DNA of 64,000 bases from the NCBI RefSeq assembly GCF_900113255.1, contig NZ_FOOR01000012.1, forward strand, positions 1 to 64,000, read 5' to 3'. Position 1 is the stretch's first letter. Every line of letters begins with the position of its first letter. This document shows positions 42,278-44,465 of this stretch, one piece after another. A model generated the notes under the pieces. The model worked only from the letters and a program-made list of their open reading frames with translations, was not told the DNA's origin and did not search any database. Source of the DNA: Novosphingobium sp. CF614 (lineage in GTDB: Bacteria; Pseudomonadota; Alphaproteobacteria; Sphingomonadales; Sphingomonadaceae). The position numbers and the translations under genes were made by a program.

Positions 42278-43042
42278 TCAGACCATCACCATGCCGCCAT
42301 TGACGTGGATCGTCTGGCCGGTGACATAGCCGGCTTCCTTGCTCGCCAGGAACACGGCGGCAGCGGCGATGTCCTCTCCCTCGCCCATGCGGCCCATGGG
42401 AATCCTGGCGTTGAGCGCCTCTTTCTGCGCATCGGGGAGCCCGTCGGTCATCGCGGTGCGGATGAAGCCGGGGGCGACGCAGTTGACGGTCACGCCCCGG
42501 CTGGCGAGTTCCTGCGCCAGGCTCTTGCTCATCGCGGTGATCCCGCCCTTGGCCGCGCAGTAGTTCACCTGCCCCGGATTGCCGGTGGTCCCGACGATCG
42601 AGGTGACGTTGATGATGCGGCCGAAGCGCGCCTTCATCATCGGCTTGGTCGCCGCGCGCATCAGGCGGAAAGTGGATTCCAGGTTCACCCGGATCACCGC
42701 GTCCCACTCCTCGTCCTTCATGCGCATCGCCAGGTTGTCGCGCGTGATGCCGGCGTTGTTGACGAGGATATCGAGCTTGCCGAGCGATTCGAGCGCGGCC
42801 GGCACCAGCTTTTCCACCTGCCCGGCGTCCGCAAGATCGCAGGCGATGGCGACGTGATCGACTTCCTGGAGATGCTGCGGGGTATGTTCGTCCAGTTCGT
42901 CCCGGAACACGCGCAGCTTGTCCCCATTCGAACCCGAAATCGCCAACCGCGCGCCCCGCGCCGCCAGAGCGCGGGCGATCGCGGAGCCGATCCCCCCGCT
43001 GGCGCCGGTCACCAGGGCAGTCATTCCGTGCAGGTCGAACAT
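42278..43042 (-). CDS. fabG: 3-oxoacyl-[ACP] reductase
   Basis: 254-residue short-chain dehydrogenase of fatty-acid synthesis. The cofactor loop is LVTGASGGIGSAIARALAAR, NNAGITRDNLAMRM is diagnostic of FabG, the catalytic residues lie in NVTSIVGTTGNPGQVNYCAAKGG (Ser, Tyr, Lys), and the end is VTGQTIHVNGGM. ATG 43042 has GGAG 8 nt upstream. Its natural partner fabD is upstream on the same strand, but a GxxExxY gene bounded by inverted repeats lies between them. No fabH or acpP is within the window. Confidence 0.96.
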   Translation of the reverse strand: MFDLHGMTALVTGASGGIGSAIARALAARGARLAISGSNGDKLRVFRDELDEHTPQHLQEVDHVAIACDLADAGQVEKLVPAALESLGKLDILVNNAGITRDNLAMRMKDEEWDAVIRVNLESTFRLMRAATKPMMKARFGRIINVTSIVGTTGNPGQVNYCAAKGGITAMSKSLAQELASRGVTVNCVAPGFIRTAMTDGLPDAQKEALNARIPMGRMGEGEDIAAAAVFLASKEAGYVTGQTIHVNGGMVMV

Positions 43043-43066: not shown

Positions 43067-43091
43067 CACGCAGAGACGCAGAGACGCGGAG
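43067..43091 (+). repeat. Left inverted repeat of the GxxExxY cassette
   Basis: 25-bp copy beginning CACGCAGAGACGCAGAGACG and ending CGGAG, between fabG and the GxxExxY stop. It is the perfect reverse complement of the copy at 43495-43519. Confidence 0.9.
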
Positions 43092-43093
43092 AG

Positions 43094-43486
43094 TCAATCC
43101 GGAGAGCGATAGTCATTCACGACTCGCCGGATGCCTTCCTTCATTGTAGCGCCAGCAAAATTGAGGAGCAGCCCCACCGGTTGACGGGTCAAACGCAAGT
43201 AAGTCAGCAATTGCTTGCCATGGGCCTTGCTCAATTGCTCGACGGACTTGATTTCGACGATTAGCCGATCATCGACAAGCACATCGATCCGAAATGCGCC
43301 CGGGAACCGCATACCATCGAAATCGATGTCGATCGGCTTCTGCCGATCGACCTTGTAGCCCATGCGCTGCAAACTGGCCGCCAGGACGAGTTCATAGACG
43401 CTTTCCAGCAAGCCTGGTCCCAGTTCGCGATGAATGCGAATGGATGCATCGACGACATCGGCACTGACATGATCTATCGGTTTCAC
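43094..43486 (-). CDS. GxxExxY protein (PDDEXK nuclease-like)
   Basis: 130-residue protein of the GxxExxY family. The naming motif is visible as GLLESVYELVL. A PDDEXK-like core follows: DVLVDDRLIVEIKSVEQL, with Asp and EIK at metal-binding positions, then KQLLTYLRLTRQPVGLLLNF. Such proteins occur in many copies in some genomes and their function is unsettled. GTG start at 43486 has GGAGGTGAT immediately upstream, and the GGAG is formed by the inner end of the flanking inverted repeat. The upstream in-frame codons reading the repeat are probably untranslated. Confidence 0.88.
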   Translation of the reverse strand: MKPIDHVSADVVDASIRIHRELGPGLLESVYELVLAASLQRMGYKVDRQKPIDIDFDGMRFPGAFRIDVLVDDRLIVEIKSVEQLSKAHGKQLLTYLRLTRQPVGLLLNFAGATMKEGIRRVVNDYRSPD

Positions 43487-43494
43487 GGGATCAC

Positions 43495-43519
43495 CTCCGC
43501 GTCTCTGCGTCTCTGCGTG
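43495..43519 (+). repeat. Right inverted repeat of the GxxExxY cassette
   Basis: 25-bp copy starting CTCCGCGTCTCTGCGTCTCT and ending GCGTG, 10 bp beyond the fabD stop codon. Its inner edge supplies the ribosome binding site of the GxxExxY gene. Confidence 0.9.
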
Positions 43520-43529
43520 CAAATCTTTC

Positions 43530-44465
43530 CTAAAGCCCCTTCGCCAGTTCCTCGATCTCGGCCATGGTCGCGGCGGAGGTTACTTCCACCTCGCTTACCG
43601 AGCGCTTTATCATCGGGCCGACGACCTTGCCGCCCAGTTCCACGAAGCGCTCCACGCCCGCCTCGTGCATGGCGATCGCGCTTTCGCGCCAGCGCACGCG
43701 GCCGGTGACTTGTTCCACCAGCAGGCGCCGCACTTCGGCCGGATCGGAAACCGCGCCGGCCGTCACGTTCGCGAAGAGCGTCACGCGCAGGGTCCCCGGG
43801 CCGGTCCTGTCCAGCGCCTCCGCCATGGCGTCGGCGGCGGGCTGCATCAGCGGGCAGTGGAACGGCGCGGAGACCGGCAGCAGCATGCCGCGCTTGATGC
43901 CGTGCTCCTTGACCAGGGCGACGGCGCGCTCGATCGCCTCCCGGTGGCCGGAGAGGACCACCTGGCCGGGATCGTTGTCGTTGGCGACGGTGCAGACCTG
44001 CCCTTGCGCGGCCGCTGCGGCCAGCGCGGCGGCCTTCTCGATATCGGCGCCCAGCAGCGCGGCCATGGCGCCCACGCCCACCGGCACGGCGGCCTGCATG
44101 GACTGGCCGCGCAGCTTGAGCAGACGCGCGGTATCGGCAAGGCTGAAGGCGCCGGCGGCGCACAGCGCGGTATATTCGCCCAGCGAATGCCCGGCGACGA
44201 AGTCCGCCTTGTCGGCAAGCGCAATGCCGCCTTCCCTTTCCAGCACGCGCAGCACCGCGATGGCATTGGCCATGATCGCGGGCTGGGCATTCTCTGTAAG
44301 GGTAAGCTGGTCTTCGGGCCCTTCGGCCATGATCCGGAACAGGTTCTGGCCGAGAGCCTCGTCGACTTCCTGGAACACCTCGCGGGCGATGGGGCTGGCG
44401 GCGGCCAGGTCCGCGCCCATGCCGACCTTCTGGCTGCCCTGCCCGGGAAAAACGAATGCACGCAT
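43530..44465 (-). CDS. fabD: Malonyl CoA-acyl carrier protein transacylase
   Basis: 311-residue FabD, which loads malonate onto ACP for fatty-acid elongation. The N-terminus AFVFPGQGSQKVGMG and the nucleophile elbow GHSLGEYTAL (catalytic Ser) are diagnostic; the catalytic His is in SAPFHCPLM. The C-terminal FVELGGKVVGPMIKRS is standard. ATG 44465 has GGAG 11 nt upstream; the longer frame overlaps the next gene. Upstream of the GxxExxY cassette and fabG, probably one transcript. Confidence 0.96.
   Translation of the reverse strand: MRAFVFPGQGSQKVGMGADLAAASPIAREVFQEVDEALGQNLFRIMAEGPEDQLTLTENAQPAIMANAIAVLRVLEREGGIALADKADFVAGHSLGEYTALCAAGAFSLADTARLLKLRGQSMQAAVPVGVGAMAALLGADIEKAAALAAAAAQGQVCTVANDNDPGQVVLSGHREAIERAVALVKEHGIKRGMLLPVSAPFHCPLMQPAADAMAEALDRTGPGTLRVTLFANVTAGAVSDPAEVRRLLVEQVTGRVRWRESAIAMHEAGVERFVELGGKVVGPMIKRSVSEVEVTSAATMAEIEELAKGL

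Follow-up and report, generated by a model that had tools for sequence, protein, structure and literature searches.

What kind of element lies between fabD and fabG in Novosphingobium sp. CF614, and what ties its one small gene to the repeats that frame it? In the window (the whole 64,000-nt stretch of DNA that was analysed), fabD and fabG are 487 bp apart, separated by a 453-bp segment (43067–43519) that encloses one GxxExxY (PF13366) gene. The segment ends in perfect 25-nt inverted arms (43067–43091 and 43495–43519) with a spacing of 403 nt. Each arm is built of three octamers in the order ACGCAGAG-ACGCAGAG-ACGCGGAG; at this locus the octamer takes the form RCGCRRAG, and the arms contain no GTAG. 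The fabD, GxxExxY, and fabG genes all lie on the minus strand, and we infer that fabD and fabG are co-transcribed here. The features of the locus are:

43530..44465, minus strand: fabD, the upstream neighbour; the insertion starts right after its stop codon
43495..43519, minus strand: 5′ arm (in the sense of the gene), CACGCAGAGACGCAGAGACGCGGAG, three inward-reading octamer units
43491..43498, minus strand: Shine-Dalgarno sequence GGAGGTGA, read from the sequence; it overlaps the 5′ arm at its inner end
43094..43486, minus strand: GxxExxY / PDDEXK_3 gene, 130 aa from GTG 43486, a start picked by the Shine-Dalgarno sequence and homologues
43067..43091, plus strand: 3′ arm, identical to the 5′ arm in inverted orientation, with inward-reading units
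42278..43042, minus strand: fabG, the downstream neighbour; the insertion stops right before its start codon

GTG 43486 is a likelier start codon than the listed TTG 43522: the TTG precedes the arm, and both the Shine-Dalgarno sequence and the homologues favour the GTG. Part of this Shine-Dalgarno sequence is contributed by the innermost unit of the 5′ arm. With equal base frequencies, ∼6 × 10⁻⁸ perfect inverted repeats of 25 bp, their copies no more than 1 kb apart, would be expected by chance in 64 kb of sequence (64000 × 1000 × 4⁻²⁵). A chance origin of the arms is ruled out by this perfect match and by the far-flank controls described below, none of which has arms. The open reading frame list and a Pfam search found no transposase in the segment, only the PDDEXK_3 gene. 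The first-pass annotation had described perfect 25-bp arms of octamers around a single GxxExxY gene between co-oriented fabD and fabG, and this description is confirmed.

The GxxExxY protein

Profile searches identify the product as a member of the GxxExxY / PDDEXK_3 family (PF13366, E = 4.3e-36; TIGR04256, E = 3.9e-36). It passes both curated cut-offs along the whole domain (124.3 bits against 22 and 123.9 against 35), and PDDEXK_3 is the only Pfam profile whose cut-off it passes. E28, D68, E78-x-K80, and Q92-x3-Y96 are invariant in 12 of 12 aligned GxxExxY sequences. The conserved D and E-x-K, together with a restriction-endonuclease-like fold, place the protein in the PD-(D/E)XK nuclease superfamily, and the gene product is likely a DNA-cutting enzyme. 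The gene evolves under purifying selection (dN/dS 0.04–0.30 in the 12 closest pairs listed).

The five AF2 models have pLDDT values of 91.9, 91.8, 71.1, 57.9, and 56.9, three of them only 57–71. The best of these has as its top structural match SSO0001 (Z 9.5, rmsd 3.7, 99 residues), which we take to be Cas4-like. The archaeal Holliday-junction resolvase Hjc (1gef; Z 7.0, rmsd 3.3, 86 residues) and other matches at Z ∼6–7 fall in the range where the tool warns of a mere common arrangement. A search of solved structures by sequence returned two weak matches (E = 0.04 and 0.1), which we take as chance. In its active-site pattern and modelled fold, the GxxExxY protein thus resembles Cas4 and RecB-type PD-(D/E)XK nucleases. 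Cas4 has a four-cysteine cluster, whereas the window's protein is a single domain of 130 aa with no cysteine and therefore lacks such a cluster. It is also not a Cas4 by the Pfam profile Cas_Cas4 (15.7 bits, below the cut-off of 22.7), and its PADLOC matches are weak (RT-associated PDDEXK, E = 0.0004; Cas4, E = 0.003 or worse).

Insertion sites and descent

A search of 59 genomes of the genus yielded 51 fabD loci and 50 fabD-fabG junctions, which we measured to the codon matching the window's fabG start. Nine of the 50 junctions are filled with a GxxExxY gene (485–546 bp). The other 41 are without it, and 25 of those are at most 17 bp long, so the empty junctions that the first-pass annotation proposed to look for in relatives do exist. 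The sister pair G013 (filled) and G041 (empty) aligns across 891 bp of the fabD flank (91% identity) and 415 bp of the fabG flank (90%), and the entire difference is confined between the fabD stop and the fabG start. From the filled and empty junctions and from this pair, we conclude that the segment is a discrete insertion. No target-site duplication is visible at the filled and empty pairs, whose flanks have diverged too far to fix the boundaries exactly, and no excision product was seen.

Three gene-free junctions (G036, G027, and G015) hold arrays and appear by eye to be decayed cassette relics; the apparent relic in G036 (L115) retains the gene's 3′ end and remnants of each arm. Four other fabD-fabG junctions (L101, L102, L107, and L118, in G044, G031, G006, and G002) are gene-free and 630–760 bp long. 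Those of G044 and G031 hold what we take to be a methyltransferase-type gene.

A wider sample of 87 GxxExxY loci was drawn from the genus, named genomes, 398 genomes of the phylum, and plasmids. Its make-up is non-random (17, being all genus matches, + 12 + 30 listed + 20 chosen among ∼100 matches + 8 plasmid), and it includes a few gene fragments (L048, L049, L066, and L184). Seventeen of the 87 loci, from several genera, sit at fabD-fabG (site A) and nine at one second junction (site B), whose neighbours are presumably carboxynorspermidine dehydrogenase and decarboxylase genes. Among 30 loci listed for site B, both junction ends were located by script in 24. Here the filled gaps measure 511–533 bp (G011, G028, and G043), five of the 24 junctions have a gap of zero, and others hold unrelated sequence. 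The presence of 26 of the 87 loci at two junctions, in a sample weighted to this genus, argues against free hopping. The earlier suggestion of a mobile cassette without its own transposase therefore holds as far as the discrete insertion and the missing transposase go, but not as free movement. The case that would have undone it, a GxxExxY gene at the same position in all relatives without the repeats, did not arise: the gene is not in all of them, and arms are present at 17 of 17 fabD-fabG copies.

The GxxExxY tree joins G025 and G037 as sisters (99/94), and the FabD tree places G025 in a clade with G000 that excludes G037 (99/95). On these sequences, the conflict implies some horizontal exchange of GxxExxY, and we reject strictly vertical descent as the full account of the fabD-fabG copy. 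Eight gene carriers need eight changes on the FabD tree, against a shuffled mean of 7.6 (G056, with FabD cut short, was left out). The site B clade joins L046 and L047 of site A, the deciding forks having modest support. With one query protein, tblastn found the gene in 8 of 72,556 plasmid records and in 0 of 50,697 phages; in viral contigs, 28 stretches fit a pattern and none was confirmed. Overall, the gene has a patchy distribution and mostly stays in place. One record labelled as a plasmid (L157; NZ_CP155749.1, Sphingomonas parapaucimobilis) contains fabD, fabG, and ribosomal protein genes and so looks like a chromosome or chromid.

Arms around GxxExxY genes and two comparison families

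To score arms, the flanks on either side of the gene were compared for their best inverted match without gaps, with a cut-off of 13 that was fixed after a far-flank maximum of 11 had been seen. Arms (score at least 13) are present at 68 of the 87 GxxExxY loci; 81 control pairs taken 670–900 bp out peak at 11. Counted by distinct insertion site, arms are found in one or more members at 29 of 42. Below the threshold are 19 of the 87 loci, including four of the seven plasmid loci outside Pseudomonadota; the three above it are from Gemmatirosa, Bacteroides, and Bernardetia. A Pirellula locus is also above the threshold with a different unit, and a Puniceicoccales fragment is below it. A Gemmatirosa locus (L158), on a record with three GxxExxY places, has a 32-bp perfect repeat pair whose units read outward, not inward.

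The best tandem period in the 68 armed loci is 8 bp in 27, 9 bp in 23, and 10 bp in 16, and the arms of 57 of the 68 contain at least two CRCRRAK units. For comparison we used the unrelated S23 four-helix family (PF05635; 26 loci used of 30 among ∼90 matches, four truncated genes being omitted) and ParE toxin genes (30 loci listed, 23 in the arm count and 22 in the CRCRRAK unit count). At least two inward CRCRRAK units on both sides are found at 58 of 86 GxxExxY loci (L127, at a contig end, is absent from this count), at 0 of 79 far flanks, at 0 of 26 S23 loci, and at 0 of 22 ParE loci. Outward units on both sides occur at 2 of the 86 GxxExxY loci.

Free-standing S23 genes have inverted tandem arms at 17 of 26 loci. 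Fourteen of these 17 have 7 as their best period, the units resemble TAGGCAG or GTGAGTA, and none of the 17 has CRCRRAK arms. No arms were found at the ParE genes (0 of 23 loci). Two genomes, G351 and G431, contain both GxxExxY and S23, each family with its own arm type. With CRCRRAK in GxxExxY arms, another unit in S23 arms, and none at ParE, the unit type in the sequences compared follows the protein family. Examples of S23 loci with inverted tandem arrays, with units such as TAGGCAG, are L286, L289, L293, L308, and L312.

No known RNA families were found in the five loci scanned. The open-access PMC literature yielded no paper devoted to these repeats or to GxxExxY, a family that the accessible parts of that literature name merely in passing.

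Matching of the two arms within a locus

Arms vary among orthologous fabD-fabG loci but mostly agree within a locus, odd letters recurring in both. Mean scores of own against swapped arm pairs are 24.4 and 12.5 at site A, and 29.2 and 17.9 at site B. The own pair scores above every swapped partner at 12 of 17 loci (site A) and 5 of 9 loci (site B); at the others it fails to do so because some loci share arms. Synonymous sites in the coding sequences between the arms are near saturation (mean pS 0.77 and 0.78). Mismatches between arms number 164 in 2054 positions, 47 in the class that G-U pairing would tolerate and 55 in the mirror A-C class. Arms that are matched despite the divergence of their loci, with no G-U excess, point to copying or constraint at the level of DNA rather than RNA.

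Dispersed non-coding arrays

The window's genome contains more inverted array pairs elsewhere, usually ∼110–140 bp apart and some of them nested; at C51:307609, one dispersed arm is an identical 24-mer to the GxxExxY arms. The array pairs of G000 and G007 are mostly without a gene. Across 24 dispersed pairs from these two genomes, arms differ by 1.5 mismatches within pairs against 4.0 (0 of 10000 shuffles; 47 of 10000 for G000 alone). The cores of the non-coding elements show by eye no resemblance to the GxxExxY gene, and we rejected the idea that they are deletion derivatives of it.

Within the genus, 11 of 12 genomes with a PF13366 match are array-rich (at least six array 16-mers), against 9 of 47 without one (Fisher p 6e-6, uncorrected for phylogeny and with counts that include the arrays at the gene itself). 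The first-pass annotation had named repeats found everywhere, independent of GxxExxY genes, as a result that would speak against it. These counts go half of the way there: array-rich genomes without the gene exist, but array richness goes with the gene. In G037, 18 of 52 other array 16-mers are those of its GxxExxY arms, and 1 of 48 in G009 equals those G037 16-mers. G009 has the gene, yet its commonest dispersed units differ from its own GxxExxY arm units. In another family, f38, exact period-9 arrays are present in 10 of the 14 genomes that have the gene and in one of the three that lack a listed match; some of these arrays form facing pairs. Reversed patterns gave 3 and 4 hits against 3 and 4 for the real ones, and 15 and 10 against 17 and 15 in another search; this control is not independent, a reversed octamer array being a phase-shifted array.

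G007 stands out from this association: 187 array hits were counted there but no PF13366 match, and its elements are missing from relatives at the three places read. About 7 of the 16 G007 clusters listed lie at CGTC-type palindromes, a type described in the accessible part of PMC3733652, so another system may carry the arrays in this genome. At L082, L206, L230, L249, L250, and L253 in G007, short octamer hairpins lie between CGTC-type palindromes, as if one family rides within another. Around 5129 in L248, the nesting of hairpin and palindrome appears reversed.

Comparison with known systems

RAYT/REPIN (REPtron) and TIRYT systems, as far as the accessible parts of PMC8049555 and PMC3733652 describe them, resemble the GxxExxY system in having a stationary nuclease gene with flanking repeats that are also dispersed as non-autonomous inverted pairs. 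They are alike too in that plasmids seldom or never carry the gene, and in that the repeats, although also found without the gene, are more frequent in its presence. The same part of PMC8049555 has the RAYT gene as single-copy and not seen on plasmids, and REPIN repeats as commoner where it is present. Here, too, the repeats at the gene's flanks recur around the genome in inverted pairs. The GxxExxY system is nonetheless no REPtron on two counts: it encodes a PD-(D/E)XK nuclease and no HUH tyrosine transposase, and its arms are tandem 8–10 bp units, not GTAG-tagged palindromes.

The closest known cassette is the 23S rRNA intervening sequence with S23 (PF05635), which is similar in size, open reading frame, and arms. 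The accessible part of PMC4990558 describes it as a ∼430-nt insertion with one small ORF between 25–28 bp inverted repeats in a co-transcribed unit. By contrast, the GxxExxY insertion lies between protein genes, encodes a nuclease, and has tandem-array arms; the segment encodes PDDEXK_3, and G000 has no PF05635 match. An arm architecture common to GxxExxY and the free-standing genes of the S23 intervening-sequence protein is worth pursuing. MITEs and insertion sequences with terminal inverted repeats (TIRs) share with the segment such repeats, patchy insertion, and short non-coding relatives. They differ from it in that it contains no transposase, shows no target-site duplication (in diverged flanks), and occupies few fixed sites.

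Proposed explanation and alternatives

We read the locus as a REPtron-like unit, in which a gene for a small Cas4-like nuclease of the PD-(D/E)XK type lies between inverted arrays that its protein would recognise, and give this reading a probability of about 0.5. The main reason for thinking that the GxxExxY protein would act on its arms is that the unit is family-specific; transposition would presumably occur as well. The tie of arms to GxxExxY and of unit type to family fits a protein that may act on its own repeats. The protein would bind the arrays, perhaps extruded as a hairpin or cruciform, and would then cut at them. Repair or template switching would copy one arm from the other and might now and then start array pairs at other places, which would be the short non-coding elements. 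Cutting followed by such repair or template switching would account for both the matched arms and the new array pairs. The gene itself would move rarely and would be retained where it had landed in the gap between one operon gene's stop codon and the start codon of the gene that follows.

The recurring arrangement of a gene between arms suggests an undescribed kind of repeat-spreading element. If the reading is true, the uncharacterised GxxExxY family gains a substrate and a role, and the tandem-octamer palindromes scattered in these genomes gain a suggested origin. Alongside HUH transposases, there would also be a second way for a stationary gene to maintain a repeat population. Because the units are specific to each family, the claim lends itself to direct testing. 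We extend it tentatively, at somewhat less than even odds, to free-standing S23 genes. GxxExxY and S23, though not related, would then both belong to a single class of small elements that is so far undescribed. In each such element, a very small protein would recognise the tandem units of its own arms and cause one arm to be copied, as DNA, from the other and also to new locations. Such a class would be an independent, transposase-free counterpart of RAYT/REPIN, with a Cas4-like nuclease in the case of GxxExxY.

It is unlikely that GxxExxY is a passenger in a TIR element, that is, cargo (e.g., a defence or addiction nuclease) between arms that serve a transposase or RAYT encoded elsewhere. Such cargo would need no unit type of its own; yet GxxExxY has CRCRRAK, S23 another unit, and ParE none, and in G351 and G431 the two families keep separate arm types. 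The absence of a transposase from the segment, the array-rich genomes without GxxExxY, and the G007 array hairpins that often sit at CGTC-type palindromes all speak for the passenger. Less probable still is an element that acts as RNA, comparable to the 23S rRNA intervening sequences; its arms would pair in the mRNA to hide the Shine-Dalgarno sequence and/or to form an RNase III site that frees the neighbours' messages, with selection acting on the stem. The 5′ arm does overlap the Shine-Dalgarno sequence, and neighbours are mostly co-directional (upstream at 37 of 41 and downstream at 44 of 48 callable loci of the 87). S23, the protein of rRNA elements, has the same arm architecture; according to the accessible part of PMC4990558, RNase III cleaves elements of this kind, and the one in Coxiella ends in a 28-bp stem. 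Pairing in RNA would, however, need no tandem units of family-wide sequence, G-U mismatches do not exceed A-C mismatches in the arms, and the array pairs of G000 and G007 are mostly gene-free.

It is very improbable that the arrays were there beforehand, as ordinary hairpins scattered in the genome, and received the gene later, even though gene-free hairpins with the same arms occur elsewhere in these genomes. An array is present at only 3 of the 41 gene-free fabD-fabG junctions, each of them one of the relics noted above, and the gene and arms of site B nest together within site A lineages, with modest support.
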